The position numbers were made by a program, and so were the translations under genes. Shown here piece by piece: positions 10,019 to 57,026 of a DNA stretch of 57,026 bases; the stretch's first letter is position 1, and each line of letters opens with the position of its first letter. Under the pieces are notes generated by a model, which saw only the letters and a program-made list of their open reading frames with translations, was not told the DNA's origin and ran no database searches. Origin of the DNA: a virus; IMG/VR virus record IMGVR_UViG_3300049215_000704, positions 1 through 57,026 of that record. One strand, written 5' to 3'.

Positions 10019-10037
10019 GGACAGAATTAACAGAATT
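10019..10037 (+). repeat. Dispersed ACAGAATTAAC repeat, copy 1
   Basis: GGACAGAATTAACAGAATT lies upstream of the Gam-like gene. Related copies are at 18686-18704 and 19598-19628, in gaps between rightward genes. Confidence 0.45.
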
Positions 10038-10044
10038 GGAGGAA

Positions 10045-10662: not shown

Positions 10663-10673
10663 GGTGTTTTTGG

Positions 10674-10838
10674 TTAGTGAAGTTGCATACCGACGAGGTC
10701 CGCGCCGAGGGCGAGGCCGATGGCGAAGGCGAGAAGAAGCGCGCCGAGGAAATAGCCAATGATCTCGAGCAGGAGCCAGCGGCCATGGGGCGCGGGCGGA
10801 TGGCGGAAGGAACGGAGGGGCGCGTGCATGGCAGTCAT
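10674..10838 (-). CDS. Small single-pass membrane protein
   Basis: A 54-aa reading frame from ATG 10838 to TAA 10674. A basic N-terminus (RSFRHPPAPHGRW) is followed by one strong hydrophobic helix (LLLEIIGYFLGALLLAFAIG) and a short tail. It fits the gap between the MuB-like gene and the next gene in the same direction. Role unknown; early transposable-phage regions often carry tiny membrane proteins. Confidence 0.5.
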   Translation of the reverse strand: MTAMHAPLRSFRHPPAPHGRWLLLEIIGYFLGALLLAFAIGLALGADLVGMQLH

Positions 10839-10858
10839 GGGTTGGTCCACTCGCTGCG

Positions 10859-10895
10859 CTCGGGATCACTCCCGCCGCTTTGCGTCTGGGTGAGG
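10859..10895. repeat. Dispersed hairpin repeat (five copies in the phage)
   Basis: Consensus about CTCGGGATAACTCCCG followed by a small GC hairpin and CTGGGTT. Copies are at 10075-10113, 10859-10895, 12266-12307, 15321-15362 and 19539-19574. All lie at or just past the 3' ends of genes, and some encode the last residues. They look like a small REP-like element and may derive from the host genome. Confidence 0.5.
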
Positions 10896-12137
10896 TTAGA
10901 CGGCGACTGGGGTTTTGAATTTGAAGTAGATGTCGTGAGCGTTGATAAAGTGCTCCCAGCCGATCGGCTTGCCGCGTTTTTTGGCGATGATGGCGGCGTG
11001 CTGGAATTGCTTGAACAGGCGCTCAATGCCGAAATGCCAGGCGATTTCATCGAGGCAGGTGAATTGCTCGTCGTTAAAGGCGAGTTGCAAATTTTTCCAG
11101 TCGTCGGCGATGCGCGTTTTGCCGCGCAGGAGTTTTTCGATGCTGCATCCCGGCATTTTCTCCACCTTGGCGCAAATGCTGGCGTAGGTCGGAAAGGGCA
11201 GATTGTAGTGGGCAGCGATGGCGCGCACGTCGCCAACCGGAATGGCCTTGGCCAGGTTGAGCTCCAGGATGCCGCGGCGGCGGATTTGCTGGAGGAATTT
11301 GAAATCGTGCGATTCGTTCTCGTCGGTCATTTCTTCCCGCGCCACATCCGTCCCACAAATGACCATGCCGCACTTCGCCGCGTCTTTGATGGCCTTGATG
11401 GCGTTGATCATTTTGATGGCGCTGTTCTTCTGGTAGCTGTGCGTGATCGAGTGAAATTCGTCGAGAATGACGAAGCGGCGGGAAAACGGCGTGCCAGCGG
11501 GGCGCAAGGCACTGATGATGCGGCGCGCCAGTTTTTCCGAACCGCAGTCAACGGAGAGGCGCAAGGCCACTGCGAATTGCTTATAGAGGCCATGCACGCC
11601 TTGCGCGTGCTGCAAATCGACATAGACCGTTTTGCCGTGGTTGTTTTCATCGCGGAACCATTCCAGCGCCTCCGTCTTGCCCAAGTGGGAAAACCCGTAG
11701 AGAAAACCGATGGCGCGATCCTGCCAGGCCATATGGCACAAATCCCAGATGTTTTTGACCGTGGGCGTCATGACCCGCACCTTTTTGGTGTGCACCGCCT
11801 CGCGCAGATTTTCGCGCGTTTCGCGGATAACTGAAAGCAACGCCGCGGGTGGCGGCAGCATCAGGCTCGTGCCGGGTGATTTGTATTCGCCGCGGTAAAC
11901 GCGCGACAGCGTGGAAGTGTCGATAAAATAATTGTCCGCCGCCTCGCGCATCGACCAGCCTTGAGCGCGGGCGTGCTCGTAGCCGAAGTGAAGATCGTCG
12001 TGATATTTCGGATCGTATTTGGCGATGCCCGCGGCGACCACGTCGCCAGGGATGTTCCATCCGCCGGAGGTGTTAAGCACCGGAGTATCGATTTGACTTT
12101 CGGCGGCAGCGCCGCCAGATTGTTTGTCGGTAATCAT
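10896..12137 (-). CDS. MuB-like transposition ATPase
   Basis: A 413-aa protein. The N-terminal part has a helix-turn-helix-like region (about residues 55-85, AQGWSMREAADNYFIDTSTL). An AAA+ core follows with Walker A GFSHLGKT (148-155) and Walker B RFVILDEF (D226, E227). MuB is an ATP-dependent DNA-binding protein that selects target DNA, stimulates the transposase and gives target immunity. It is encoded directly downstream of the transposase, as in Mu. Family members are usually about 310 aa, so this one has a longer N-terminus. Confidence 0.8.
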   Translation of the reverse strand: MITDKQSGGAAAESQIDTPVLNTSGGWNIPGDVVAAGIAKYDPKYHDDLHFGYEHARAQGWSMREAADNYFIDTSTLSRVYRGEYKSPGTSLMLPPPAALLSVIRETRENLREAVHTKKVRVMTPTVKNIWDLCHMAWQDRAIGFLYGFSHLGKTEALEWFRDENNHGKTVYVDLQHAQGVHGLYKQFAVALRLSVDCGSEKLARRIISALRPAGTPFSRRFVILDEFHSITHSYQKNSAIKMINAIKAIKDAAKCGMVICGTDVAREEMTDENESHDFKFLQQIRRRGILELNLAKAIPVGDVRAIAAHYNLPFPTYASICAKVEKMPGCSIEKLLRGKTRIADDWKNLQLAFNDEQFTCLDEIAWHFGIERLFKQFQHAAIIAKKRGKPIGWEHFINAHDIYFKFKTPVAV

Positions 12138-12151
12138 GTTAGTTTTGAATT

Positions 12152-12189
12152 GGCCGCCCGGCGTATCAGCGTCGGGCGGCCGTTTTTTT
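12152..12189 (+). terminator. Terminator-like hairpin in the A-B gap, oriented rightwards
   Basis: A 12-bp stem with a wobble pair (GGCCGCCCG... with ...CGGGCGGCC) is followed on the plus strand by GTTTTTTTG. It would stop transcripts entering from the left, antisense to the early operon, rather than the A-B mRNA. In the leftward mRNA it forms a strong hairpin just before the B start and could tune B expression. Confidence 0.5.
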
Positions 12190-12194
12190 GTTAA

Positions 12195-14474: not shown

Positions 14475-14502
14475 GGTAGGAAGGGGTTAATCGCGCGGAG
14501 AC

Positions 14503-15288
14503 TCAGAGGGATTTTTTAACGCGAACGAAGGCGGCGTGGAGGGAGTCGGCGAGCTTCTGGCGGTCGGCGCGGGGCAGGTTTTCGAAGGTCGGCTTGTCGC
14601 ACAGGAAACATTCCTGCACCTTGGGCAGAAACTCGGTGAAATAGAGCTGCTCCGCTTCCTTGCGGCGCGCGGCGGTTTGCTCTTCGGGGGAAAGCCGCTG
14701 GCGTCGATTGGCGTGTTGCTCGTCAGCCAGCTCGTCGAGTTCGGCGTCTTTGTCAGCCTGGCGGAAGTCGGCGAGCATCTGGCGGAGAGATCGACCGGCG
14801 ACGAAGGCACCCAGCGCCTGACCAAACTTGGCGTCGCCAGCGGAAAGCAAATGCTCGGCAATGACCAATCCAGGCGGAACGTCCTTGGGGAGTTGCACTT
14901 TAAGGGCCGCCGCCCAGGCAGTGCGGCTATCGCCGCTTTCGATATTTTCGAGAAACTTTTTGGCGAGCATCAAGTAACTGCGTAACTGGCGGCAGGCATC
15001 GTCTTTATTCAAATCGGAAGCGGGTGCTTCCGATTTGCTCAAGATGGCGGAAAGCACGTCCTGAAACTTGCCATGCTCGGTGTTGGCTTTGACGCCGAGC
15101 AGGGCGAGGCCGAACTGGATGGATGCCACGGTGAAATTGCCGCGCTGCTGTTCGACGGCCAGATAAAGGCGGTGCAGTTGCGCTGGGCCGATTTTCTTGC
15201 CGAGCTGTTCCAGGGCGGTTTGCGTGCGCAGGGATAACTCGCCGGAGGGAACAAGTTCGGTGGGGGTAGTATCGGTTTTTTTGGACAT
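14503..15288 (-). CDS. Phage early protein of unknown function
   Basis: A 261-aa, mostly helical protein just upstream of the transposase gene in the early operon. It has a charged linker (about 180-215, RQADKDAELDELADEQHANR) and a C-terminal segment KVQECFLCDKPTFENLPRAD. No family recognised. Start at MSKKTDTTPTEL. Confidence 0.6.
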   Translation of the reverse strand: MSKKTDTTPTELVPSGELSLRTQTALEQLGKKIGPAQLHRLYLAVEQQRGNFTVASIQFGLALLGVKANTEHGKFQDVLSAILSKSEAPASDLNKDDACRQLRSYLMLAKKFLENIESGDSRTAWAAALKVQLPKDVPPGLVIAEHLLSAGDAKFGQALGAFVAGRSLRQMLADFRQADKDAELDELADEQHANRRQRLSPEEQTAARRKEAEQLYFTEFLPKVQECFLCDKPTFENLPRADRQKLADSLHAAFVRVKKSL

Positions 15289-44397: not shown

Positions 44398-44443
44398 ATG
44401 CCCAAACCTTTGCGAAACGTGCCTAAACGTTTTGCGACGCTAC
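44398..44443 (-). promoter_or_regulatory. Right-end transposase-binding-like repeats
   Basis: Two motifs related to the left-end repeats lie in reverse orientation: ATGCCCAAACCTTTGCG (44398-44414) and TGCCTAAACGTTTTGCG (44420-44436). The reverse complement of the outer end (GTAGCGTCGCAAAACG) shares GTCGCAAAA with the left end. Confidence 0.6.
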
Positions 44444-45933
44444 ACAGCGTCTTTACCGGAGGGGGAATAGTAGAACACGAACTCAAAGTCGTCGCGCCCG
44501 ACGACGATTTTCTCGGTGACGAGTTCGACCTTTTCCAGCTTCTCCTCGGGGGACATTTCGTTCCATTTGTTGGCGAGCCAGCCAGCATTTCGGGCGATTT
44601 CGTCCGCAGAGAGGGAGTGGACTTTCATGATGTCTAGTTCGGCCTCAAGCCGGGGGATGGTCGTTTCAATCTGTTTTTGGCGCTCGACGAGGGGGTCGTG
44701 GAACTTGGCAAACCCATCGGCGTCGAGTTTACCCTTTTGATAAAGCTCAAAGGTCTTCTGAATCTCGCGCTTGGTTTCCTGCAAGGCTTCGCGTTGGGCG
44801 GCGATGGACTGCTCTTTCTCTTCGGCGGCTTGGTCGGATTTCTTGAGGTAGACCTCGATATTGGCGGGCGAGAGGCCAAAGTCCCTGATCTCGCCGACAA
44901 ATGCTTCCTCTAAAATATCTTCGGCAACCCTGTTCCTGCACTTCCGGCAGGTGTATTTCTTGGTGTTCCCAGGGATGTGCATTTTTTGCCCGCAATGGCA
45001 GAATGTGAGGCTGGCGAAAAGATGCACTGGTTTCTTGGCGGGCCGGTTCTGCTTGCTCAAGGAATCATCAATCATCCGGTTGCATTCCTCCCAAACCGCC
45101 TCGCTCACGATAGCCGGGATTTTATGGTGCTTCCATTCGCTCTCGGGTTTGATTGTCCACGGGCTGGTCGGGCTGGCGCGGGTCGTGTAGTTGATTCGGT
45201 GGACACCCTTGGCGGTCGGGTCGCGTAACAAACGCGTGAGTGTTAACAAGGTGAACTTTGACCCGCGCCGAGAGCGGTGGCCAGCGTCGGTTAACAGTTT
45301 GATAACCGTTTTCTTCCGCTTGTGCTTCAAGTAAAGGTCATACATCAACTTCCGTACTGGCGCTTCGTCCGGGTGGGGAACAAGCCGCTTCTCCTTCCAT
45401 TGGTAACCAAAGGGCGCGGGGCCGCCCAATGCGGTGCCAATCTTGGCCCGCACGGCGATCGAAGAGTTCACGCGGTCTACGATTTCCTCTCGCTCCCATT
45501 GGGTCATCGCCGCAATAATGGTATAGAAGAGCCGCCCGGCTGGAGTAGACGTGTCCACCCGCTCCTGCAAGGAAATCATGTCGGCGTTGTGCTGCCGGAA
45601 GAACTCGGCGAACTCCAAAAGCTCCTTGGTGTTCCGGGCCAGTCGCGCCAGTTTGGAAAAGATCAGGCCGGTGATATGACCGCGCTTTACGTCGGCCATC
45701 ATCCGCTTGGCTTCGGGGTTCTCCATCACCGTCTTGCCCGACACCCCGGCAAGGTCATAAACCTCCACCACTTTCCAATCGCAGAAGCTCGCGTATTCCC
45801 GCGCTCGCCGCTCGTGATGTTCCGGCGATTCACCCTGGGCTTGGTCGTCCGTGCTCACGCGAATCCAAATACCCACCCGCTTTTTGTTATCAAGCGGCGG
45901 CTGCTTCGGATTGCTGGACTTCGCGGCACTCAT
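44440..45933 (-). CDS. Large serine recombinase, 3' end altered by phage insertion
   Basis: A 497-aa protein starting at ATG 45933. The resolvase domain has GIWIRVSTDDQAQGESPEHH (catalytic Ser27), GLIFSKLARLARNTKELLEF and an RLFYTIIAAMTQWEREEI stretch. A recombinase domain, a zinc-ribbon (CHCGQKMHIP...CRKC) and a coiled coil follow. Serine integrases catalyse site-specific integration and excision. The last residue and TAG stop lie at the phage end; across the rejoined site the frame would run on for 24 more codons into tRNA antisense. Activity of the truncated form is uncertain. Confidence 0.88.
   Translation of the reverse strand: MSAAKSSNPKQPPLDNKKRVGIWIRVSTDDQAQGESPEHHERRAREYASFCDWKVVEVYDLAGVSGKTVMENPEAKRMMADVKRGHITGLIFSKLARLARNTKELLEFAEFFRQHNADMISLQERVDTSTPAGRLFYTIIAAMTQWEREEIVDRVNSSIAVRAKIGTALGGPAPFGYQWKEKRLVPHPDEAPVRKLMYDLYLKHKRKKTVIKLLTDAGHRSRRGSKFTLLTLTRLLRDPTAKGVHRINYTTRASPTSPWTIKPESEWKHHKIPAIVSEAVWEECNRMIDDSLSKQNRPAKKPVHLFASLTFCHCGQKMHIPGNTKKYTCRKCRNRVAEDILEEAFVGEIRDFGLSPANIEVYLKKSDQAAEEKEQSIAAQREALQETKREIQKTFELYQKGKLDADGFAKFHDPLVERQKQIETTIPRLEAELDIMKVHSLSADEIARNAGWLANKWNEMSPEEKLEKVELVTEKIVVGRDDFEFVFYYSPSGKDAV
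44444..44448. repeat. Right copy of putative 5-bp target-site duplication
   Basis: ACAGC, identical to 2827-2831, directly follows the phage right end inside the 3' end of the serine recombinase gene. Confidence 0.55.
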
Positions 45934-46012
45934 AGATGGAAACGTAGGCTTTCGGCCTACTCTCGGCAAGAAAAAAGTAGGCTTCCTGAGATTATTTTGC
46001 TAGTTGGTAACC

Positions 46013-46249
46013 ATGCCGAAAAGCACTTTGTTATCAGAGTCCGATCTGATGGCGCTAGCAAAAAAATACCGCAAGGCGACAGGGAAGACTCGCGCTGCTG
46101 TCGCCCGTGAACTCGGCGTCGCCCGACCTACGATTGTTCAAGCGGAGGAAAATCTAGAACAGAGTTTAACTAAACTTCGGATTCGGATTATCGAGACCTA
46201 TTCCCGTCAAAAGGTTACCGGCCCCTGGTTCAATGTTATTGAAAAGTAG
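46013..46249 (+). CDS. Small HTH protein divergent from the recombinase
   Basis: A 78-aa protein. ARELGVARPTIVQAEENLEQ with the preceding KATGKTRAAV forms an XRE-like HTH. It is transcribed away from the recombinase, with a hairpin (GTAGGC TTTCG GCCTAC) in the 79-base gap. It may regulate the recombinase or act as a directionality factor (inference). Confidence 0.55.
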   Translation: MPKSTLLSESDLMALAKKYRKATGKTRAAVARELGVARPTIVQAEENLEQSLTKLRIRIIETYSRQKVTGPWFNVIEK

Positions 46250-47071
46250 CTACACGATTTTTGTTCGCTTTGCCTTCCTGGGTTTCTTTTGCAACTCCTC
46301 CAAGTGCTCTACGTAAGTGTGGTAATTCCGATAAGCATTAAGCTGTCCGTTAATCGTTCCATCAATCATTGAATGTAGGTAGCCGACCAAGGCTTCAAAT
46401 CGTGATTGTTTGATTAAGAAAGTTCTTGAGGAAAAAGTTTTTTCGATGTGCTGATGAATCATTGATGGATGAAATGGCCTCTTGTCCTTGCCGCTGCTTA
46501 TGCCCTTTTTCCTCCAATCAATGTAGCGCTTAACTAAATATTCTATGTATGAGCGCATATCGGCGTTTGCTCCGATAACGTCTGTTGGTTGAGGAGCCGC
46601 AGATTTTTTGCTCGTAGTCTTGTAAGTGATGTTGTGGGCCTGAACAGAACCAGGACTGTTCATCATCACTTGGGAATGATCTTTGGCTTCGATGTGTATA
46701 TACGAACTATACAAAGCACGAGCTAACGCGGCATCGGTTGGGGAAATCTCAACCGGCCCACTCACATATTGTTCGTGCGTTTGTTTAATTTGTCGTAATT
46801 TCTCAACGGTGTAAATTTCAGGCTGGTCGTCGATAATTGTATGATGGAATCCGCACATTAAGACTAGGTTATCGAAGCCGTGTCGCTCTTCATCGGTTTG
46901 TTTTGGATCAAATCTCGGGCCTTTAGGATTTTTTGCCTTAATGTGGCAGACTTCTCCAGTTACCGTTTCCGATCCCGGTTGCACGATTGAAGTGCTGCAA
47001 CTTGCAAATGCACATTGATTTTTGGAGAGCGCAAAAAGCTTCTTAATAACTCGTTCGCTCGGTGCATTCAT
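46250..47071 (-). CDS. HNH endonuclease
   Basis: A 273-aa protein. CAFASCSTSIV, EVCHIKAKNPKGPRFDPKQT and FDNLVLMCGFHHTIIDDQPE form an HNH (beta-beta-alpha metal) nuclease with Cys ligands (residues about 20-95). A linker and a C-terminal helical domain follow. The gene is much richer in A/T than its surroundings, which marks recent transfer. It follows an XRE regulator by about 20 bases (ATG 47071; a TTG at 47089 is also possible). The pair resembles small nuclease-regulator defence modules; the target is unknown. Confidence 0.72.
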   Translation of the reverse strand: MNAPSERVIKKLFALSKNQCAFASCSTSIVQPGSETVTGEVCHIKAKNPKGPRFDPKQTDEERHGFDNLVLMCGFHHTIIDDQPEIYTVEKLRQIKQTHEQYVSGPVEISPTDAALARALYSSYIHIEAKDHSQVMMNSPGSVQAHNITYKTTSKKSAAPQPTDVIGANADMRSYIEYLVKRYIDWRKKGISSGKDKRPFHPSMIHQHIEKTFSSRTFLIKQSRFEALVGYLHSMIDGTINGQLNAYRNYHTYVEHLEELQKKPRKAKRTKIV

Positions 47072-47091
47072 GTGTTTACTTAAAAACAAAA

Positions 47092-47370
47092 CTATTTTTG
47101 AGAGTTCTTTACAACTTTTTCCGCTTCGGAAATTATCGCTCCTAAATTGAGATTTAACGCCTCTGCTATTCTGAGCATCGTTTCCAAAGTTGGGTTCCGT
47201 AGATCTCGCTCAATGTAACTGATCATTTGATAGGAAAGCCCCGCTCGTTCGGCAACGCGGTTCATCGAAAGCTTTTGCCGTAACCTCTCTTCTTTGAACA
47301 TCTTAGCCACTTGAGCACAAATGGCGTCGCGGGTTTTATTATTCATTATCCCGAGGGTAGGAACATCCAT
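47092..47370 (-). CDS. XRE-family transcriptional regulator
   Basis: A 92-aa protein. The HTH is FKEERLRQKLSMNRVAERAG followed by LSYQMISYIERDLRNPTLET, a textbook XRE domain (residues about 23-80). It lies upstream of and co-directional with the HNH gene and probably controls it. ATG 47370 is chosen; ATG 47346 would remove eight residues. A 10-bp palindrome lies just upstream. Confidence 0.75.
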   Translation of the reverse strand: MDVPTLGIMNNKTRDAICAQVAKMFKEERLRQKLSMNRVAERAGLSYQMISYIERDLRNPTLETMLRIAEALNLNLGAIISEAEKVVKNSQK

Positions 47371-47385
47371 GCTTGACTTGTATGC

Positions 47386-47395
47386 AACTATAGTT
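47386..47395. promoter_or_regulatory. Palindrome AACTATAGTT, possible XRE operator
   Basis: A perfect 10-bp palindrome in the 36-base gap between the divergent XRE gene and the gene at 47407. It is well placed to let the XRE protein control both directions. Confidence 0.4.
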
Positions 47396-47406
47396 ATGGG
47401 TAGGGC

Positions 47407-47652
47407 ATGAAATTCCTCCATCGTCTCGGCCCCGACCCGCACTCCAACGGTCAGCGCACCGCGAATTTGAGCGGATGCCCTGACATTCTTGCCCTGGACA
47501 CAGGGGATTTTGCTGTTATCGGGAAGGACATTACGGACGAAGCGTGCGGGCGGCTTCCGCCTACCGTGGGTTGTGGGCCGGATGAGCGCGTGGTCTTGCT
47601 CCCGCGAAAGACCCTCGTTCTGGCGAGGGCTGACATACCGAGCACGCTCTGA
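47407..47652 (+). CDS. Small conserved-looking protein (81 aa)
   Basis: MKFLHRLGPDPHSNGQRTAN, then a segment with CPDILALDTGDFAVIGKDIT and a C-terminal VVLLPRKTLVLARADIP. It has a coherent small-protein composition with acidic turns and a GDFAVIG strand pair. No family name recognised. It starts 37 bases from the XRE gene in the opposite direction. Confidence 0.55.
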   Translation: MKFLHRLGPDPHSNGQRTANLSGCPDILALDTGDFAVIGKDITDEACGRLPPTVGCGPDERVVLLPRKTLVLARADIPSTL

Positions 47653-47689
47653 ATTTTGCCGATGTCAGCATCTGCGCTATACTGGCGGG

Positions 47690-48139
47690 ATGATTTTGAT
47701 AAGCTGGCTGGCACAACACTGGTTTGACCTGCTGCAAACCATCGGCATTGTTGGAGGACTTTTCTTTACAGGCTGGTCTTTGCATCTGGACACACAAACC
47801 CAGCGGGCCGCTAATCTGCTCACTCTGACCTCTCAGCACCGGGATATATGGAAGATTTTATATTCGGAGCCACAACTTGCCCGCGTCTTAGAGGTGAATC
47901 TCGATCTGGCAAAGTATCCGGTGACTGACGATGAAGCCCGCTTCGTGGGATTTCTAATCCTGCATTTGAACGCCTCCTATCAGGCAATCAAGGCGGGCGT
48001 TCTGATGAAAGCGGAAGGGCTTGCTTCAGACATTCAAGGATTCTTTGCCCTGCCAATTCCAAAAACTGTCTGGGAAAAATTGCGGAAGTTCTACGATGCC
48101 GACTTTGTAGCGTTTGTTGACGAACAAGTTAAGGGATGA
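47690..48139 (+). CDS. Single-pass membrane protein of unknown function
   Basis: A 149-aa protein with GGCGGG 3 bases before the ATG. One membrane helix (FDLLQTIGIVGGLFFTGWSL, residues 10-29) is followed by a helical cytoplasmic domain (LTLTSQHRDIWKILYSEPQL ... LHLNASYQAIKAGVLMKAEG). Small proteins of this design occur in defence islands as signalling or effector partners, but nothing here proves it. Confidence 0.55.
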   Translation: MILISWLAQHWFDLLQTIGIVGGLFFTGWSLHLDTQTQRAANLLTLTSQHRDIWKILYSEPQLARVLEVNLDLAKYPVTDDEARFVGFLILHLNASYQAIKAGVLMKAEGLASDIQGFFALPIPKTVWEKLRKFYDADFVAFVDEQVKG

Positions 48140-48153
48140 CTTTCTCGATGGGG

Positions 48154-48218
48154 AACCAAGCCTATGGCTGCTTCACTACATATGATTTGACGATACGAAG
48201 CAGCCATAGGCGTTGGTT
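48154..48218. terminator. Long hairpin between convergent genes
   Basis: Arms of 21 and 22 bases pair almost completely (AACCAAGCCTATGGCTGCTTC with GAAGCAGCCATAGG plus CGTTGGTT; one bulged G) around a 22-base loop, and TTTT follows on the plus strand. It lies between the convergent genes ending at 48139 and 48238 and probably terminates from both sides. Confidence 0.6.
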
Positions 48219-48237
48219 TTAATTTTCTGAGCGTTTT

Positions 48238-48414
48238 TTACTTCTTGCCGCCTTGAACTGGCGTGTTGAGTGCCGCAGCTGACTGTGCCCTTGCTGCGAA
48301 GCTACCACTCTGAACCTGCCCTCCTGATGCTTTTGCAGTCGCGCTCTGAATTCGAGATGCCGCGCTCTGCGTCATTGGGGTTCCTGATTTGCCGCCTGTG
48401 TTTCCTGTTTTCAT
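48238..48414 (-). CDS. Small SMP-like (seed-maturation-protein-like) protein
   Basis: A 58-aa protein: MKTGNTGGKSGTPMTQSAAS, then RIQSATAKASGGQVQSGSFA and ARAQSAAALN. The MTxSAASRIQSAxAKxxGGxVxxGSFAARAQSAA pattern is recurrent in small proteins carried by plasmids and conjugative elements. Function unknown; its presence supports the mobile nature of this segment. Start at ATG 48414. Confidence 0.6.
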   Translation of the reverse strand: MKTGNTGGKSGTPMTQSAASRIQSATAKASGGQVQSGSFAARAQSAAALNTPVQGGKK

Positions 48415-48488
48415 GGTGTTGTCTTTTGGGTTTTGGATTCGACCAACAGGGGCACAACTTAGCACAACATTAGATAAAAATCCCAAAC

Positions 48489-48513
48489 AAAAAAGCCCCT
48501 CCAGGTGGAGGGG
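48489..48513 (-). terminator. Intrinsic terminator of the hicBA operon
   Basis: On the minus strand CCCCTCCA pairs with TGGAGGGG and is followed by CTTTTTTG. It lies 10 bases after the HicA stop. Confidence 0.75.
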
Positions 48514-48522
48514 GGTCTGACG

Positions 48523-48747
48523 CTAAAGCAACTCACGGAATTCCTCCTCTGAGAGACCCGCCTGTTCGAGGATCATGCCCATGATTTTTCGGGAAAGGTC
48601 TCCGGGGTGCAGGGATACCATGGTGGTGCAGCCGGTAATGGGATGCCGCAGAGAATGGTGCGCGCCTTCGATTGCTACAATTTGGAAATTGCCCCGTTGC
48701 AAGGCTTGCAAAACTTTTCTGGGCGTGAGGGTGGGCAACCGGCTCAC
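48523..48747 (-). CDS. hicA: HicA-family toxin (YcfA-like mRNA interferase)
   Basis: A 74-aa protein: LTPRKVLQALQRGNFQIVAI, EGAHHSLRHPITGCTTMVSL and the typical ending ILEQAGLSEEEFRELL. HicA has a dsRNA-binding-like fold with an active His in a G-x-H-H segment, present here (residues 28-31). It cuts mRNA when free. It is downstream of and overlaps hicB by 4 bases (ATGA), so antitoxin is made first. Confidence 0.85.
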   Translation of the reverse strand: MSRLPTLTPRKVLQALQRGNFQIVAIEGAHHSLRHPITGCTTMVSLHPGDLSRKIMGMILEQAGLSEEEFRELL

Positions 48748-48989
48748 ACCAGTTGAGAGAAATTCAGGCGAAACTTCATGCTCTGAAGGGGCTTCTTGTC
48801 GACTGGCAGTGGCTGCTTCAGCTTGTGCATGGCCTTCACGTAGCAGCGGAAGGCCTCCCGGATGTTGGACAAAGCATCATCGTAAGTCATGCCGTGTGTA
48901 AAGCAGCCCGGCAGGGCGGGGATCGACACTACGTAACCTCCTTCCTCGTCCACCTCCATTTTTACGTTATAGCTGTATTCTCGATGCAT
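48744..48989 (-). CDS. hicB: HicB-family antitoxin
   Basis: An 81-aa protein: VKMEVDEEGGYVVSIPALPG then CFTHGMTYDDALSNIREAFR, the core of HicB (partial RNase H-like fold). The family core ends near residue 60; a short tail replaces the usual RHH or HTH domain, so it may not bind DNA itself. Start ATG 48989; a TTG at 49016 is possible. Confidence 0.82.
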   Translation of the reverse strand: MHREYSYNVKMEVDEEGGYVVSIPALPGCFTHGMTYDDALSNIREAFRCYVKAMHKLKQPLPVDKKPLQSMKFRLNFSQLV

Positions 48990-49031
48990 GTAAGCCAGCT
49001 TAACATGGCGGCGCAATTTCAGTCAAATGGG

Positions 49032-51617
49032 TCAGGTTGCACCCACGGGCACGGTAAGTAGATTGCTTATTTCGGTATAGAGAGGGATGTTGGCCTCCGA
49101 CTCCACGCTGACAATGAGGCTGTAGCGAAGAGGCAGCGAGTGGCAGTTGTGCCAAGTATCACCTGGAGGAAATTTGCGGTAAGCCCACCAACCTTTAGCG
49201 GGGAAAATAGCGATGCGATCCATCCGGGCGAGGTCTGCGGCGGAGCCTTTCCATACGTCATGAATAAGTGAGCCGCCTTTGCCGCAAAGTTTGGAGCCCA
49301 ATGCCCAACCCGGATCGGAGGGCAGGGTTTGTCCGTTGGCATCGTTATCCGCTGCTTCATCTTCCTGGGCTGCCCTTGTCAAGCGTTGCTCAAAACTGGC
49401 GTCGTCAGTTTCGTCCCTATTGCGGACAAGGAAGCGGAGAAGGCTGCCGCCATAACGATAGCGCGAGCCTTTGAGTGCGTTATTAGCTGACGGGTTCGGG
49501 GCTACGAAATAGGACAAAGTCACCCGCAGAGTAAGGGTAGTCTCGAAGTTGTTTTGCAAAAGCTGCACAGGCCAAGGCAGCTTGTGAATATGGCAATCGT
49601 TAAGCTTAATGGTACTGTGTTCTTTCCTGTATGGCCTAAGCTCATCCTGCCGGATCAAGGTCGTGGCGTGCTGGGCGCTAAAATAGGCTCGCTCAACGTC
49701 CGGCTCGCCATAGCCGTAAGAGCGCAGTATTTGAACAAATCGCTGGCGGTTGTTTGCATTAAAACGCTGGTGCGGATCGATGCCATCAAGCATCGGCGAG
49801 GTCCATCGGGCGGCATGAACAAGAAGGCCACGTATGGTTTCCGGCCAGTATTCGGGGTAGCGGGCAGTAATCTCGGCGGCTAGGCGAGCGGCTTGGGCGG
49901 TGGCTGCGCTCGTTGCATTGAAAGAACAGAAAGGCCGCCCCATTTGCGTCCTTGCTGAGGTGCTGACTAATTGGAGGGAATCGCGATGCTCTATGCCATT
50001 TTCCGGATGAATGGCGGCATTACCTCCCTCGAACACAATCTCGGGCTTGAGCGGCCAATGGGTGTCCCAATCGCAAGAGGTGCGGCTAAACGGGCTGAGC
50101 ATATCCTTTTGCCGGACAATGGGAGTGAGGCGGCGGGCTTCCGCGTCGGCTTCAGTCACTACGGTTCGATGGGTGTTCGCACCCACGGTTACGGCATTCC
50201 AAGCCTGAGCGGGGTCTTCAATTGGCGTCTGACGATTTTCGTCGGGGTAAGTGTAAGTGGCCCCCGCATTTTCTGGATTCACATTTCCGGCGGCGACAAG
50301 GATTAAGCGCTTTACCCCATTGCCGTCGCCATAGGCGGCCATATCAACAGCAGCACTCCAAGCCGAAGGCTTGCCGTCGTTTGTCCCTTGGGCGGTAATG
50401 GCAAGGCAGTAAGCTCGACGCCGTTGGGCTTGAACAATTTCGGGGAGGTGGATGGCTTGAAGCGTGACGGAGCCGTAATTGTCCGGTTCGTGAAGGCGCT
50501 GTGGGTCAAAAAGGCGAACGGATTCGAGCCGGTGTAGTTGATTCCAAGGCTGGGTGGACGCGGTAAGTTGGCGCAAATCACCGTAGGCAGCCAGTCCAGC
50601 CATAGGAGTGCCGTGTCCGTGAGCGGTGCGGGCGACATAGCCATCGCTGCCGTCTCCATCTCCAAATACAGTATGATTGTCAGGGGCGGCGAGAAGAGGT
50701 TCAAGCAGCCGGTGTCCGCGATTTACACCGGTGTCCAGCAAGCAAACGGCGGGGGCATTATCCGCAGGGAAGGTAATGCGTTGCAAGGCATCGGTAATAT
50801 AGTCCTCTTGTTCAATGGATGTAAGATCGGTAAGGCCGAGTGAGCAAGGATGGGCTCCGCGCAATTCGGCGAGAGTGTCGAGCAAGGGGATAGACGAAGC
50901 CAAATCAGCATAGGTGCCGCGAGCAACGAACACATAGTGGTCGGGAAGATCGAGGGCTTCCCCACGTACCTCCAGCCTCAACCTCTCGGCGATGGCTAAA
51001 AAACGGCCCCGAACAATTGCGGGATATTTCCTGACCCAGAATTGCCACCAATGGGGGTTTCCGTCGCGCGGGAGATCTTCTTGCGGGTCTGTCCAGAGAC
51101 CTTCAATTGCTGCTTGGCCTATGCGACCGATATTTGCGATATAAGCATTTCCTCGTGTGCCAGTGCCAACACTGAATTTTCTGATTTTTTCCTCAAGGAT
51201 ACCCAGCCCGCCAAAGGGCACGCTTAGAAGCACGCGGGTGTATGGGCGGCCGTCGGCGTCGAGCAGTTGCTGAGAATGCAAATGCACCGGAAGCTGGCCG
51301 GGGTTTCCTCCACGTTGAGTGGTCAGAGCATAAATCTCCTCCGTGGAGAGTGGATAGCCAGATTCGGAGGTGAGCGTAATGGGAATACCCGTCATCTCGG
51401 GCATTGTAGCTGTCGGAATAGATTCTTGCACCCAATCGCGCACCGATTGTAATTGTGTCGTGAGGAATGCTGCGTGCTCGGATCGCACAACCTCTCGAAA
51501 GTTGCGTTGGCCATACCCGCGCCCTGTGTAATTCACACGTTGAGGTTGAACTGTAAGCAGCAAGTGCCTGAGCGTAGGCCTTGGAAGGGGCACAAAAGGC
51601 TGCGTGTTATCTGGCAC
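49032..51617 (-). CDS. ietS: Subtilisin-like serine protease, IetS-type
   Basis: An 861-aa S8 peptidase. The triad is visible: AVCLLDTGVNRGH (D295), TAHGHGTPMAG (H335) and CSFNATSAATAQAARLA (S570), with the oxyanion Asn in LVAAGNVNPENA (N445). There is no signal peptide, so it works in the cytoplasm. About 280 N-terminal residues precede the protease core. It is encoded 24 bases after an AAA+ ATPase gene. This ATPase + subtilase pair is the IetAS system, first described on an Agrobacterium plasmid and later reported as an anti-phage system. The protease substrate is unknown. Confidence 0.8.
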   Translation of the reverse strand: MPDNTQPFVPLPRPTLRHLLLTVQPQRVNYTGRGYGQRNFREVVRSEHAAFLTTQLQSVRDWVQESIPTATMPEMTGIPITLTSESGYPLSTEEIYALTTQRGGNPGQLPVHLHSQQLLDADGRPYTRVLLSVPFGGLGILEEKIRKFSVGTGTRGNAYIANIGRIGQAAIEGLWTDPQEDLPRDGNPHWWQFWVRKYPAIVRGRFLAIAERLRLEVRGEALDLPDHYVFVARGTYADLASSIPLLDTLAELRGAHPCSLGLTDLTSIEQEDYITDALQRITFPADNAPAVCLLDTGVNRGHRLLEPLLAAPDNHTVFGDGDGSDGYVARTAHGHGTPMAGLAAYGDLRQLTASTQPWNQLHRLESVRLFDPQRLHEPDNYGSVTLQAIHLPEIVQAQRRRAYCLAITAQGTNDGKPSAWSAAVDMAAYGDGNGVKRLILVAAGNVNPENAGATYTYPDENRQTPIEDPAQAWNAVTVGANTHRTVVTEADAEARRLTPIVRQKDMLSPFSRTSCDWDTHWPLKPEIVFEGGNAAIHPENGIEHRDSLQLVSTSARTQMGRPFCSFNATSAATAQAARLAAEITARYPEYWPETIRGLLVHAARWTSPMLDGIDPHQRFNANNRQRFVQILRSYGYGEPDVERAYFSAQHATTLIRQDELRPYRKEHSTIKLNDCHIHKLPWPVQLLQNNFETTLTLRVTLSYFVAPNPSANNALKGSRYRYGGSLLRFLVRNRDETDDASFEQRLTRAAQEDEAADNDANGQTLPSDPGWALGSKLCGKGGSLIHDVWKGSAADLARMDRIAIFPAKGWWAYRKFPPGDTWHNCHSLPLRYSLIVSVESEANIPLYTEISNLLTVPVGAT

Positions 51618-51641
51618 AGAGCGTATTCGTTGGGGTTCAAA

Positions 51642-52625
51642 CTAGTGGTTGAGAAAGAGACGGCGCTCAGTCAAAGCTGTGACCAAGGTGTCGGTCGTGA
51701 TTGATTGTTTCCCGTGCAGGAGCATTTCCTTGGCGGATTCTTCGCAGGCACGGGTAATCTCGGCATAGCTAAGCCCTTGGGCTGCTTTGAGAATCTTTTT
51801 CTTGCCAAGTCGAGGGGCGGGAAGGCCATGCAAGCGGGTTTGAACAGTTGCCCACGTATGGGCTCCGTCGGGTAGGCCAAATTCGACAAGATCGTCAAAG
51901 CGTCGATACAGAGCCTTGTCGAGACGATCGCCGTGGTTGGTTGCGGCAATGACGAGGCTGTTGCTGGTCAGCTTTTCGATGAAAGCGAGGAAACTATTGA
52001 GTAGGCGGCGCATTTCGCCAACATCGCTGGTAAAGTCTCGCGTATAGCCGATACTATCGAATTCGTCGAAAAGGTACACGGCCCGGGTTTGATTGACGGT
52101 GTCAAAGATGAGGCGCAGCTTGCTTAGCGAATCGCCCAGATAGCGGGTAATGAGACTATCGAGCCGGACGACAAAGAGCGGCAGGGAGAGATCATCAGCC
52201 AAGGCAGCAGCAGTCATAGTCTTACCACACCCAGGAGGGCCGGTGAAAAGAAGGCGTTGGCGTGGGCGAAGCCCGTGCTCTTTCAGGTTACTGAGATTTT
52301 CCTGTTCGGAGAGGATGCGCTGAATGCGAGACTTAAGAATATCCGGGAGAATCAAATCTTTTACCTTCCAGCCAAGGTCAATGTGCTCCAGCAATTCAGC
52401 GGCTTCCCCTTGCGGCTGAGCAACATGGAAAATGGAAGGCATTGATTTCGGAAGGGGCCTTCGCTGCTTGGCTTCGTCAACGAGCCGCTTAATCTCCAGA
52501 GCGAGTGTTTCATGTCCCCGGCGGGCCTCGGCTGCAGCCACTTGCAAGGCGATAGCATAGAATCGCTCGTCATCGCCACTGCCGTGGCTCTGAAGGAGGG
52601 CTTTAATCTGGGGGGCGCTAGCCAT
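51642..52625 (-). CDS. ietA: AAA+ ATPase, IetA-type
   Basis: A 327-aa protein from ATG 52625. Walker A is LLFTGPPGCGKTMTA (G129-T136), Walker B is AVYLFDEFDSIG (D187, E188), followed by SNSLVIAATNHGDRLDKALY (sensor and arginine-finger region). The N-terminal 100 residues are helical. It probably senses a trigger and controls or feeds the protease encoded downstream. Same operon as the subtilase. Confidence 0.82.
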   Translation of the reverse strand: MASAPQIKALLQSHGSGDDERFYAIALQVAAAEARRGHETLALEIKRLVDEAKQRRPLPKSMPSIFHVAQPQGEAAELLEHIDLGWKVKDLILPDILKSRIQRILSEQENLSNLKEHGLRPRQRLLFTGPPGCGKTMTAAALADDLSLPLFVVRLDSLITRYLGDSLSKLRLIFDTVNQTRAVYLFDEFDSIGYTRDFTSDVGEMRRLLNSFLAFIEKLTSNSLVIAATNHGDRLDKALYRRFDDLVEFGLPDGAHTWATVQTRLHGLPAPRLGKKKILKAAQGLSYAEITRACEESAKEMLLHGKQSITTDTLVTALTERRLFLNH

Positions 52626-52773
52626 GAAGGTAAGAAGTATGAACGATATACTTGCACAGCATCTTGGTGGTAGTTTGGCATCAAGGCGAGCTTTTGAGGA
52701 GGCAAAAGCACTTATGTTTGTTACGGAAGTATACCTCACGACTTTCGATCATCAAGATTCTGTGCCGCCTTAT

Positions 52774-55700
52774 TTACCTTGTGCGCTTTGCCTTTTTCAT
52801 CGCGTCTACCATGACTTTGATGAGTGCCTCTTCGCGGGCCTTGGCTTGTTCGGGGGGTATGTTCGCCAGTCTGCTTTTGACTTTCCAGCCGCGCACGATT
52901 TTGACTTCGGGAGTCGGTGGCGCAGGCGGCGGCAGGTTTTCCAATGCAGTGAGAAAGGTGTCCGGCGAATAATATCCCACGCGGGCGGCAACCTCTTGGC
53001 CGAGGCTGCTGGCAACCGCGCCCGCGAGTTTGCCTAGCTTGGCCTCATCAATGCCGACGACTGCGATTTGTGAAAAGCCTGTCTTGGCGCACTTGGAAAC
53101 ATTGCCGACTTCATGGTCAATGGTCGTGCTGACGGTGATTTCGACGGCAAGGGCTTGGTCGTCGCGCTCTAGCAATAAGTCAACAATGCCCAGGCCGTTC
53201 GGCAGGGGCTTCTCAAGTGTCGCCCGGAACCCGAGAGCTTCGGCAGCTTCTTTGATTCGGCGTTGGATAGCCTTATGCTCTACGCCGCCGCGTCCTGGGT
53301 CAGTAGGCTGGACAACAAGTTTTTCCTCCCTAACCAGTGGCGGGGGTTCGGGTTGGGCAGGCAGGGCTGGGGCAACCGACGGAGATTGCGAAGCCTCGGT
53401 TGCCACTGCCGGGCCTGCGGGCTTGGCGGCCTTGGGCCGCTCTTGATGCGGCGCGGGGGTGGACGCTGCCAGCGGAGCTGACGGCAGCGAAGCGGAGATG
53501 GCTGCTTCCACTGCCGCGCGGGATGCCGCGTATTTTTGACGGGATGCGGCAATGACTTCCCGCCGACGCGCGGCGGCGGTCTGGGCATCGAGAGGCTCCG
53601 GCAGTGGAACACTGAGGTTGAAATCAAAATCGCTCCGCTCGACGCGGCAAATCGCCTGCCCGGTGTCGAGATTTTGCAAGTCGCGGGCTTCAAATGATGA
53701 GAAGCCACTTTCCAACGCCCGTGCGTCTTGGTCGCCAACGCGAAAACAAATCCGCGTGCCTGTGCTGCCCAGCACGGCACTGGCGACTTCGGGATCACGC
53801 TGCAACTGGCGCAAGTCTTGATGCGCGAGAGTGAGGCCGAGCCGATACTTGCGTGCGCCAGTCAAAATTTCCGCCATCGAGGGAGTGATGAAATTTTGGA
53901 ACTCATCAAGATAAAGCCAAAAGTCGCGCCGCGCGGCGGCTTCCTGTCGCTGGCGGGCGATGGCGAGTTGCTGGAATTTGATGACGAGCAACGAGCCAAG
54001 TAAATAGGCGTTCTCCTGGCCGATGGCTCCCTGCGAAAGTTTGGCGAGGAAGATTTTGCCACCATCCATGATGTCGCCGAAATTGAGCCGGTTCTCTCGC
54101 TGCGATACCATGTAGCGGATAGGCTTCGGGCCAAGGAAGGTATCGAGGCGGGTGAGGATTGGGCCAATGGATTTGTTGCCCCCAAGCTGGGGGAAGCCCT
54201 TGCGCCAATAATAGACCACGCCTTCATCCCGAACGGTCGCAAGAAATTGATCACGCACTCCGGGTTCCAATAGAAACCGCTGCAAGTCCGCGAGCGTGCC
54301 ACCGCGTTCGCTTTCGAGAAAAGCACGCACGGCGTTCGACAAAACACTGCCCATCTGGTCGCCCCAACTCGTGGAAAGGCGGCGAAATACAGATACAAGG
54401 TCTGACGCTAAAAGATTCTTTTCCCAATCCGAGTGCGCCGAGAGGATATTGAATCCGACTACGAAATTTTCATCAGCGGGATCGAGCAACACCACATCGT
54501 CAATGCGATTTTTGGGGATAACGCCGAGAATGCTTTCAATAAGATCACCGTGTGGGTCAAGGACACCGATGCCCTGGCCGTTTTCAATATCCTGCCGGAT
54601 CATATTGAAAAGCAGAGTGCTCTTGCCGGTTCCTGAAGCACCGATCAGGTGGGTGTGGCGGACACGCTGCTCGGGCGCGATAACAACGGTGTGCGTCTCG
54701 CCCGCATGGGTATTTGTGCCAAGCACAAGACCTTCCGCCGCCGTCGTGATGGCCAGCGCACGTTTGGTCTTCTGTGTTTGTCGGCGAAACTTCGGCGAAG
54801 AAACCGCTTCGGTAGGGAAGCGCACGAAACCGATCAGCTCGTCGGCATTGAGAAGCATTCCGCTGCGGCGCGACTGGCGGCGAAGCATGTCCTCGATGTG
54901 TGCCTCCAAGGGGTAGTCGTGGTTGCTAAGCGGAATCAATTCATTGCCGTTTGGGTCGGCAAAGGCACTCAATGCTCCGGCCAAGCTTCGGCCAATGTCC
55001 ATGACTCGCTCAAAATTGGGTGCGCACGCTGCAACGCGAACAATCATTCCATAAAGTGGACGAGCAATCTTTTGCCTCGTGGCGGAAACCAATTCCTTTC
55101 CGTTGACGAAAAAGGCGTCGCCAGAAGAATCTGTGACAGAGCGAAGAAGATTTTCCGCCCAGGGCTTTTCTGTTGGTTGAAAGAGCACTTGGTAAAGGGC
55201 GATTTCCCCTTCGGCAAGTTCGCTCATGGCTCCGATCAGTGGCACACAAAGATCATGGTCAACATCGGCGAGCGGCAATACGGCTTCGCGGGAGAGACCA
55301 AATTCGATCACGGCAATCGCGCCTTCGCCAGTTGCATCGAGCGCGGCTTCAAGAGTTCCCTTGGTGGACAGACACACCACCTCGGGAAAGAAGGCGCGGA
55401 TTTGTTGTTTTACCCGCATTTCGTCTGCCGAGCTAACTACCAATTGCGCAATGCTGTGGGTGGAGGTGCCGAGTAATTCAAAGGCAACGGGTTCTGCTAG
55501 GTGAGCGAGGCTGTAGAGAAATTGCGCAAATGCCTGCGGTTTTCCCGCGAAGTCCTTGGGCAAGTTCAGCGTCAATTCGATCAATTCTCCACGTTCAAGA
55601 ATTTCCGGCTCTGATGCTTCTTCGGTGTCCTCCGGGGAAGGTGGTGTGTTCTTTCCGCCAGCAAATTTCTGTTTTAACGAACTAAATAGACCTGGCTTGC

Positions 55701-55857
55701 GACCGTCGTCAATCACCGGCTTCTCAAAAAAATCCGTGTTCCGAAATGGAACAAACGACGGCTCCGGTGCAACCGGATGGGGATGCACCTGCCAGCCGCG
55801 AGCACGTTCCTCCCAGCGGTGGAACCTCGCGCTCAATTCTTCGTCAAGCCGCGACAT
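52774..55857 (-). CDS. HerA/VirD4-like ATPase with C-terminal nuclease-like domain
   Basis: A 1027-aa protein. Residues about 90-350 form an alpha/beta N-terminal domain. The motor has HLIGASGTGKSTLLFNMI (G407-S414), GVLDPHGDLIESIL, WLYLDEFQNFITPS (Walker B) and LTLAHQDLRQLQRDPE, the signature of type IV coupling/HerA ATPases. No membrane helix is obvious. A Pro/Ala linker (about 790-855) leads to a C-terminal domain with LGIVDLLLERDDQALAVEIT (D893, E906), a PD-(D/E)xK-like pattern. Either a mobilisation coupling protein or a helicase-nuclease defence protein. Its partner is the membrane protein 4 bases upstream. Confidence 0.75.
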   Translation of the reverse strand: MSRLDEELSARFHRWEERARGWQVHPHPVAPEPSFVPFRNTDFFEKPVIDDGRKPGLFSSLKQKFAGGKNTPPSPEDTEEASEPEILERGELIELTLNLPKDFAGKPQAFAQFLYSLAHLAEPVAFELLGTSTHSIAQLVVSSADEMRVKQQIRAFFPEVVCLSTKGTLEAALDATGEGAIAVIEFGLSREAVLPLADVDHDLCVPLIGAMSELAEGEIALYQVLFQPTEKPWAENLLRSVTDSSGDAFFVNGKELVSATRQKIARPLYGMIVRVAACAPNFERVMDIGRSLAGALSAFADPNGNELIPLSNHDYPLEAHIEDMLRRQSRRSGMLLNADELIGFVRFPTEAVSSPKFRRQTQKTKRALAITTAAEGLVLGTNTHAGETHTVVIAPEQRVRHTHLIGASGTGKSTLLFNMIRQDIENGQGIGVLDPHGDLIESILGVIPKNRIDDVVLLDPADENFVVGFNILSAHSDWEKNLLASDLVSVFRRLSTSWGDQMGSVLSNAVRAFLESERGGTLADLQRFLLEPGVRDQFLATVRDEGVVYYWRKGFPQLGGNKSIGPILTRLDTFLGPKPIRYMVSQRENRLNFGDIMDGGKIFLAKLSQGAIGQENAYLLGSLLVIKFQQLAIARQRQEAAARRDFWLYLDEFQNFITPSMAEILTGARKYRLGLTLAHQDLRQLQRDPEVASAVLGSTGTRICFRVGDQDARALESGFSSFEARDLQNLDTGQAICRVERSDFDFNLSVPLPEPLDAQTAAARRREVIAASRQKYAASRAAVEAAISASLPSAPLAASTPAPHQERPKAAKPAGPAVATEASQSPSVAPALPAQPEPPPLVREEKLVVQPTDPGRGGVEHKAIQRRIKEAAEALGFRATLEKPLPNGLGIVDLLLERDDQALAVEITVSTTIDHEVGNVSKCAKTGFSQIAVVGIDEAKLGKLAGAVASSLGQEVAARVGYYSPDTFLTALENLPPPAPPTPEVKIVRGWKVKSRLANIPPEQAKAREEALIKVMVDAMKKAKRTR

Positions 55858-55861
55858 GGGA

Positions 55862-56602
55862 CTACACTGTCGCAGGTTCGGCGTTGGGCTTTACTGTCGC
55901 CGTTTTGTAAAGTTCGCCAAGAATTGGACTGTATTCATAGCTGCGAACAAGCTTCACGCCCTTGGCGGCTGTTACCTCATCCACCTTCATTTTAACGATT
56001 TCGGTGATGACTGTCAGATACATCAGGCGCGTGTCGTGCCGGAAATAGGTGTCTTTGCGAAAGCGATCATACCATGCGCCGATAACCGTGTAGTCGAGCA
56101 AGAGACTTTGTAAATCGGGAATGGGCGGCAGCTTCACTGGGCTACTTGAATCCTTTTTATCGGGTTCAGAGTCTGACTGTTGAATTGACCTGTATATTAA
56201 ATATGCAAAGGCAGCGAAAACGGCAAGACCCAGAGCATTGATACCAATATGGCCAATTAGCCATGAGGCCACACCCAGCAGGAATCCGATTGCGATAAGC
56301 GCCAGCCACCCGAAGCGCGGCTTTTCAACAAGTCGCACGGAAAAGAAATACTCGCGGCCAAACGGGGCGGCGCAGACATCGAAGGCGTAACGCTCGCGGG
56401 CCAGACGAAGATATGTTCGCTTGTCCGACAGTACACTGCCTTCAAAGAAATCCACGCGAGAGATTTTCAATCCGGGAACCTGCCGTGCGGCCAGTTCCTT
56501 TTCAACTTCGTCGTAAAACTCCTGGGTGGAAAACTGGAAATTGTCCAACGGGGCAATCCAGTGCGAAAAGACGTTGTCCGACTGACGCTTGGATATGAGC
56601 AT
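55862..56602 (-). CDS. Membrane protein paired with the HerA-like ATPase
   Basis: A 246-aa protein. Two adjacent membrane helices (WLALIAIGFLLGVASWLIGH and INALGLAVFAAFAYLIYRSI, residues about 98-140) separate an N-terminal alpha/beta domain from a C-terminal helical domain. It lies 4 bases from the ATPase gene in the same operon, so it probably anchors the ATPase at the membrane, as a coupling complex would need. No family name recognised. Confidence 0.6.
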   Translation of the reverse strand: MLISKRQSDNVFSHWIAPLDNFQFSTQEFYDEVEKELAARQVPGLKISRVDFFEGSVLSDKRTYLRLARERYAFDVCAAPFGREYFFSVRLVEKPRFGWLALIAIGFLLGVASWLIGHIGINALGLAVFAAFAYLIYRSIQQSDSEPDKKDSSSPVKLPPIPDLQSLLLDYTVIGAWYDRFRKDTYFRHDTRLMYLTVITEIVKMKVDEVTAAKGVKLVRSYEYSPILGELYKTATVKPNAEPATV

Positions 56603-56680
56603 AGCGAAACATATAGTGATGTATAAAAATTCGCTGGCAAGAAATAATCTTGATGTGTTCTGTCTGTATGAGAAAATAAA

Positions 56681-56702
56681 AGCCCCCTAATGAAAGGGGG
56701 CT
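56681..56702 (-). terminator. Intrinsic terminator after the Toprim gene
   Basis: On the minus strand AGCCCCC pairs with GGGGGCT around an 8-base loop and runs into TTTATTTT. It ends the transcript of the gene at the right edge and separates it from the next operon. Confidence 0.75.
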
Positions 56703-56720
56703 GTAATACAAGCGAATGTC

Positions 56721-57026
56721 TCAATCAGGCACAAGATGCAAGACGGCGGCATAGTCATGAGTAAGATTTTCTGGCTGAAAGCCTTCTTTCTCAAACGCAA
56801 CAACGCGCACAAAGGACTTGGTTGCAAGCCGTCGCATAATGTCTTCACGTCCAGCACGTCCGGCATCGTCCTCGTCAAGCATTACGATGATCGTGCTGTC
56901 TGAATTGGTTGCCTGGACAATCAATTTTTCTTGCGTGACTGACATAGAACTACCCATTAATGCAATGGCTTTTCGGTAGCCAAGCTGCCATAGTCTCATT
57001 ACGTCAAAGAAGCCTTCGACAATCAG
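56721..57026 (-). CDS. Toprim (DnaG-like primase) protein, partial at window edge
   Basis: The visible 101 residues are the C-terminal Toprim part. They begin LIVEGFFDVMRLWQLGYRKA (catalytic Glu in VEGFFD), then AIALMGSSMSVTQEKLIV and TIIVMLDEDDAGRAGREDIM (DxD motif). These match bacterial DnaG and related phage or plasmid primases. The protein ends soon after Toprim, so it lacks the DnaG C-terminal helicase-binding domain; the N-terminal part (zinc finger?) is off the window. It may prime replication of the element. Confidence 0.78.
   Translation of the reverse strand: MIVEGFFDVMRLWQLGYRKAIALMGSSMSVTQEKLIVQATNSDSTIIVMLDEDDAGRAGREDIMRRLATKSFVRVVAFEKEGFQPENLTHDYAAVLHLVPD

Follow-up and report, generated by a model that had tools for sequence, protein, structure and literature searches.

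The IetAS pair of the Ti plasmid pTiC58 was reportedly described by Yamamoto et al. 2009 (J Bacteriol 191:4656), and the anti-phage ietAS, as modelled by the NCBIfam equivalogs NF042956 and NF042959, is said to go back to Gao et al. 2020. In an excerpt of PMC8562856, the pTiC58 work serves as the reference for IetS being a toxin that stabilizes the plasmid, and remarks on this work also occur in an excerpt of PMC8765062. The first of these excerpts further reports a mycoplasma pair with this two-gene plan, whose ATPase fully neutralizes the protease, which on its own causes a 3-log drop in E. coli counts. According to an excerpt of PMC9958689, the ietAS mechanism was still awaiting description as of 2023, and no paper on it was found in the literature searched, which excludes most subscription journals and all preprints. 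Here we analyze an IetAS relative in the IMG/VR record IMGVR_UViG_3300049215_000704, a viral sequence whose full 57,026 bases are referred to as the window. Judged by its sequence, the pair is an IetAS relative of the pTiC58-type branch, with firm family membership. We lean slightly towards reading it as a protease toxin restrained by its AAA+ partner, by analogy with studied pairs, forming an addiction or abortive module on an integrative element. The pair itself is of an ordinary, known IetAS kind, and its seat in a swappable slot of this element is the more interesting part.

An IetAS pair of the pTiC58 type

The ietA gene lies directly upstream of ietS on the same strand, with an intergenic gap of 24 nt (Table 1), and the coordinates, frames and ATPase-then-protease order of the original prediction are right. 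The ietS frame runs from a GTG start at 51617 to a stop at 49032. The longest open frame of ietA reaches a GTG at 52739; the preferred start is ATG 52625, as first given, because it agrees with the relatives and with the point, 52630, at which DNA homology ends. Pfam analysis reports Peptidase_S8 (PF00082, E 7.9e-52) for IetS and AAA (PF00004, E 1e-27) for IetA. The PADLOC profiles also return both proteins (IetA, E 1.2e-67, profile positions 4-320 of 374; IetS, E 8.9e-35, profile positions 244-709 of 795), and by their scores these matches are beyond chance. The catalytic triad D295/H335/S570 of IetS is intact and, together with the oxyanion residue N445, invariant in all 107 aligned proteins, the window protein included. 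Simple hydropathy analysis reveals neither a signal peptide nor transmembrane-like stretches in IetS, which had been proposed as an intracellular S8 protease with full triad. In IetA, the Walker A residue K135, the Walker B residues D187/E188 and the arginines R241/R242 are invariant in 108 out of 108 proteins. Compared with the closest relative, dN (nonsynonymous divergence) is 0.14 for IetS and 0.09 for IetA while dS (synonymous divergence) is saturated (>2), and both genes are therefore under purifying selection.

The pair found on pTi_C58PMP90 (L009), which we infer from the plasmid's name to be the published pTiC58 pair, aligns with the window pair at 47% identity near full length for IetA and at 35% identity over residues 12-852 for IetS, N-terminal region included. 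The earlier assignment to the IetAS type is borne out by the profiles, this full-length alignment, the gene order and the invariant active sites, and the PADLOC search that it had called for does report profile similarity for both proteins. Both curated cut-offs of the NCBIfam anti-phage equivalogs are missed (48.8 vs 900 bits for IetS, 189.3 vs 510 bits for IetA), although the homology is still clear (E 3.4e-13 and 1.1e-55, respectively). Used as a yardstick, the L009 pair likewise falls below these cut-offs (IetS 39.9 bits, IetA 198.8 bits), and its PADLOC scores (IetS 4.8e-25, IetA 2.6e-71) are similar to those of the window pair. A Rhizobium pair, L012, is nearer a PADLOC IetS model, with 441 bits. 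Quick maximum-likelihood analysis of IetS gave two trees, with long branches flagged, and in these the window protein groups with the pTiC58-type rows (43 out of 55 rows in the first tree and 28 out of 37 in the second, SH-aLRT 100). In both, this clade stands apart from the L012-like rows as well as from L128-L130, which among the full-length rows of the trees score best with the anti-phage IetS model. Five long rows and thirteen others were dropped from the second tree, and the fragment L127 is in neither. Of note, the genome G251 holds IetS genes of two branches, L144 and L153, one of the window's kind and one of the L012-like kind.

The two genes form a unit. IetS matches were collected at 125 loci, made up of 10 selected plasmids, 80 genome contigs and 35 viral contigs, and IetA lies directly upstream on the same strand in 122 of them; the three others are truncated at the contig start, beginning less than 80 bases from the stored end. 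The intergenic gap is at most 60 nt in 117 of the 119 pairs closed at both stops. The closest relative, in the genome G374 (IetS 79% identity), shares DNA homology with the window only at 49039-52630 within the 37 kb compared; since this covers exactly ietA and ietS, the unit consists of exactly these two genes. Pairwise distances of IetA and IetS correlate with r 0.895 over 101 loci, and none of 500 permutations reaches a value as high. HicAB, HNH and XRE proteins were considered as fixed IetAS partners and rejected, HicA, HicB and HNH matching at 0 of the 125 loci and XRE at 4.

Regarding the spread of the family, a tblastn search of 72,556 plasmid records with IetS reports matches in 459, and 335 of these are typed conjugative; the counts are not independent because 213 of the 459 are from Klebsiella. 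The same search returns 2 out of 50,697 phage records, the 35 viral contigs, and at least 590 stretches of genome contigs, 80 loci of which were kept. IetS also matches in 14 of the 286 genomes of the class to which the Spartobacteria locus L018 belongs (E 0.001). Among the matches listed, the nearest named IetS relatives (L013, L014) belong to the Verrucomicrobiota, and the host phylum is therefore probably the same.

Anatomy of IetS and IetA

The AlphaFold2 model of IetS (mean pLDDT, the predicted local confidence, of 86) shows two N-terminal modules, a subtilisin catalytic domain and a mainly beta C-terminal domain (Table 1). The catalytic domain matches subtilisin structures with Z values of about 23, and the catalytic and C-terminal parts together (model residues 284-838) match the KP-43-type structure 1wmd (Z 25.1, root-mean-square deviation 3.0, 381 residues aligned). 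Searched by sequence against the PDB, the family profile retrieves ordinary subtilisins alone, and the window IetS retrieves nothing. In the N-terminal part, residues 77-168 and 189-254 of the model each display the order strand-helix-strand-strand-helix-strand, which is known from subtilisin prodomains. The top Foldseek match of the model is the pro-form 3afg, in a listing that gives no residue ranges, and the structure comparison covered residues 261-653 well and the N-terminal modules barely. Of 78 family members searched with their second module, none matches the inhibitor I9 model of Pfam, the profile of this module returns a single PDB match (E 0.17), and hhalign does not detect an internal repeat between the two modules (probability 4.2). 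That the N-terminal region might be peculiar to the window protein is ruled out, relatives including the pTiC58-type protein having it as well. The region is less conserved than the protease: the mean share of the commonest residue is 0.33 for residues 1-74, 0.43 for 75-172 and 0.49 for 173-262 vs 0.57 for 284-650, with H48 and W194 as invariant residues within it. Identity to the closest relative is 0.69, 0.69 and 0.77 in the N-terminal parts vs 0.83 in the protease part. On the model, these modules may serve as a sensor or as a prodomain.

IetA has an AAA+ fold resembling the PAN, 26S, FtsH and p97 ATPases. Its pore loop bears an aromatic residue at position 162 in 103 out of 108 proteins, and the glycine after it, Gly164, is present in 108 out of 108.

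The carrier element and its cargo slot

The window carries phage genes: a terminase and a portal lie at 21.9-25.1 kb, and the end of a gene for a DNA methyltransferase is at 44344. Beyond them, an integrative element takes up 44440-57026, where the window stops within the primase gene, in the order recombinase, helix-turn-helix (HTH) protein, slot, coupling-protein-like ATPase, gene with transmembrane-like (TM-like) stretches and primase fragment (Table 1). The phage and the element are considered separate because none of the phage-part genes matched in the seven relative stretches tested. The relatives were drawn from the 286 genomes mentioned above, 76 of which contain recombinase matches at E 0.001. 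The 16 strongest recombinase places (at least 45% identity over at least 290 residues) lie in 15 genomes, and 14 of these 16 regions were compared. The slot interval is readable in 10 of the 14, the four further regions (L166, L174, L177, L178) being cut short or otherwise arranged. It is empty in five relatives (L164, L167, L168, L172, L175), where the alignments to the coupling-protein-like and HTH genes end 9-48 bp apart, and filled in the other five (L170, L171, L173, L176, L179). IetAS is present in none of these ten slots. In L179, the slot is filled by a 2197-residue protein (8660-15253), possibly a large defence protein, with an N-terminal match to PADLOC DUF626_VIII (1.4e-16); the L171 slot holds a protein with a PADLOC PDC-M14A match (2.7e-14), and the two proteins tested from the L176 slot return no PADLOC match. 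The primase fragment has as its relative in L164 a CHC2/Toprim primase, after which come ArdC-like and RadC-like genes, typical of conjugative elements. Searches of viral contigs with the proteins P0003 and P0007 gave no useful match, and the literature searched yielded nothing useful on such elements in Verrucomicrobiota.

The gene at 52774-55857 had been taken as a HerA-like ATPase. A type IV coupling-protein-like ATPase is the better description: Pfam analysis reports TrwB_AAD_bind well above the cut-off (44.2 vs 20.5 bits) and DUF87, the HerA central domain, below it (19.6 vs 23.2 bits). In relatives, this gene is retained beside the recombinase. Its end resembles, by eye, a PD-(D/E)XK nuclease, and the C-terminal piece is kept in relatives. 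As a component of the IetAS system it was rejected, since a match to it lies near IetAS at 1 of the 125 loci (L018) and in 1 of 4 near-relative genomes, and the gene is backbone elsewhere. On the slot and backbone evidence, the proposed island exists and bears cargo of a defence or addiction type, with the HerA-like gene belonging to the carrier. The original placement of the pair on an island is thus upheld, the pair lying within the variable slot, while the idea of a compact defence cargo stands in part: it is favoured by PADLOC-matching proteins in two of the five other filled slots, and the HerA-like ATPase has to be taken out of it. With its single slot, empty or filled, this element family provides a naturally assembled pool of candidate defence modules in Verrucomicrobiota.

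The HicAB, XRE-type HTH and HNH-like proteins reported beside the pair are real by Pfam and PADLOC. HicAB (PF15919, 8.8e-12; PF07927, 2.6e-9) is co-cargo outside the IetAS unit, given its lack of matches at the 125 related loci. The module formed by the XRE protein, an 81-residue protein and P0008, the latter two without a Pfam match, is also held by the L170 and L173 slots and recurs in L018. The N-terminal part of the HNH-like protein matches, besides several models of HNH endonuclease effectors, PADLOC PDC-M68A (7.5e-31), and its C-terminal part returns no PADLOC match.

Table 1. Features of the IetAS pair and of its carrier element in the window (aa, amino acids)
Feature	Coordinates	Strand	Basis
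ietA, AAA+ ATPase, 327 aa	51642..52625	minus	PADLOC, Pfam AAA, invariant motifs
IetA K135 codon	52221-52223	minus	Walker A
ietS, S8 (subtilisin-like) protease, 861 aa	49032..51617	minus	PF00082, PADLOC, invariant triad
IetS residues 75-172, first predicted beta-alpha-beta-beta-alpha-beta module	51102..51395	minus	AlphaFold2 secondary structure
IetS residues 173-262, second predicted beta-alpha-beta-beta-alpha-beta module, invariant W194	50832..51101	minus	AlphaFold2, conservation
IetS residues 284-650, subtilisin catalytic domain	49668..50768	minus	Structure match, conservation
IetS residues 651-861, C-terminal mainly beta domain	49035..49667	minus	Structure match 1wmd
IetS D295 codon (active site)	50733-50735	minus	
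IetS H335 codon (active site)	50613-50615	minus	
IetS N445 codon (active site)	50283-50285	minus	
IetS S570 codon (active site)	49908-49910	minus	
Large serine recombinase (backbone)	44440..45969	minus	Resolvase and Recombinase domains, relatives
Small HTH protein, divergent from recombinase (backbone)	46004..46249	plus	Relatives
Cargo slot (HNH, XRE, 81-aa protein, P0008, HicAB, IetAS)	46250..52773	none	Empty or filled in relatives
HNH-like protein	46250-47089		PADLOC
XRE-type HTH protein, divergent	47092-47442		Conserved module
81-aa protein	47407-47652		Conserved module
P0008	about 47690-48139		Conserved module
HicAB (HicB 48744-49016, HicA 48523-48747), 15 bp downstream of ietS	48523..49016	minus	Pfam
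Type IV coupling-protein-like ATPase, C-terminal nuclease-like part by eye (backbone)	52774..55857	minus	Pfam, relatives
Protein with hydrophobic TM-like stretches by eye (backbone)	55862..56602	minus	Kept upstream of coupling-protein-like gene
Primase (Toprim) C-terminal part, cut by window edge	56721..56999	minus	Matches in L018, L164

Possible functions and comparison with described pairs

On the family, the pairing, the intact active sites, the unit boundaries and the carrier, all directly established, a mechanism can be proposed by analogy. In the toxin reading towards which we lean, IetS would be a cytosolic subtilisin-like protease harmful to its own cell, and its partner IetA, a ring-type AAA+ ATPase with a pore loop suited to threading polypeptides, would bind IetS and restrain or remodel it. 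If IetA were lost or overwhelmed, through loss of the element or disturbance by an invader, IetS would be freed and growth would stop, with the net outcome that the element would be stabilized and the population possibly protected by abortive infection. This reading is proposed because of the mycoplasma pair, the plasmid-stability toxin IetS of pTiC58 and the conserved parts of the window pair; it supposes that the pair acts like its studied relative, and the trigger and the mode of IetA action are likewise presumed. It also draws on the identity to and shared branch with the pTiC58-type pair, the constant pairing and co-divergence of the two genes, the DNA homology to G374 limited to them, and the pore loop and fold of IetA. 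The conjugative typing of most of the plasmid records with IetS, and the seat of the pair in a cargo slot beside HicAB, suggest the same. Several points weigh against it: the mycoplasma pair is likened by gene plan and is chromosomal; an AAA+ threading motor is unusual as an antitoxin, and the same parts suit an ATP-dependent protease; and the plasmid counts are dominated by Klebsiella and come without a base rate. In addition, the flanks of related pairs match more PADLOC families near the pair (within 3 kb) than far from it (beyond 6 kb), 138 vs 31. This test, which covered 115 of 174 near and 120 of 144 far proteins at 30 loci with proteins longer than 900 residues dropped, is weak because families are counted, not proteins.

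The flank counts would rather speak for a dedicated anti-phage system, a less probable but serious alternative, in which IetA or the N-terminal part of IetS would sense a phage product and activate the protease to abort infection, element stability being a side effect. The PADLOC profile matches of both proteins and the PADLOC-like proteins in the L171 and L179 slots point in this direction. An excerpt of PMC10286901 lists ietAS among the systems escaped via changes in functional phage proteins, and the excerpt of PMC9958689 treats it as anti-phage, on an integrative and conjugative element in Salmonella. The N-terminal modules of IetS diverge faster than the protease part, as a sensor might, but this is compatible with a prodomain as well. 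The window pair is far from the NCBI equivalog cut-offs, however, and lies in the pTiC58-type branch, for which no anti-phage test was found in the accessible literature. The parts of IetA would also suit a two-part ATP-dependent protease of the PAN or FtsH kind, in which IetA would unfold foreign or damaged proteins and feed them to an IetS that stays idle without it. The conserved threading pore loop, the proteasomal ATPases and FtsH as closest folds, and the obligate pairing and co-divergence of the two proteins are consistent with such a machine. Its patchy presence on mobile DNA and its movement as two genes are nevertheless unlike a housekeeping protease, and the protease of the mycoplasma pair is toxic when the ATPase is absent, according to the excerpt of PMC8562856, so that this explanation appears very improbable. 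Lastly, in a doubtful variant of the toxin reading, IetS would be locked in cis by its two tandem prodomain-like modules, which would stay attached, and the threading IetA would keep it in, or return it to, the locked state, the whole being a cartridge for a Verrucomicrobiota integrative element that would swap defence and addiction modules in a dedicated slot, located between the coupling-protein gene and the recombinase. If so, the antitoxin would be a machine and not a stoichiometric plug. As a well-bounded two-gene unit with IetS relatives at 79, 50 and 44% identity, the window pair offers a practical case for studying the restraint of a subtilase by an AAA+ protein.

Compared with the described pairs, the window pair shares with TA132/3 of Mycoplasma mycoides, as presented in the excerpt of PMC8562856, the combination of an AAA gene (353 residues) and an S8 gene (757 residues); TA132/3 differs in its chromosomal location, and the likeness is one of gene plan. 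With the anti-phage ietAS modelled by NF042956 and NF042959, it has in common the two-gene plan and clear homology, but it misses both curated cut-offs and the rows nearest the IetS model are located elsewhere in the tree. The IetAS pair of pTiC58 agrees with it in gene order, in the domain plan of both proteins, that of the IetS N-terminal region too, and in tree branch. It differs in residing on a Ti plasmid, whereas the window pair sits on an integrative element that probably belongs to Verrucomicrobiota.

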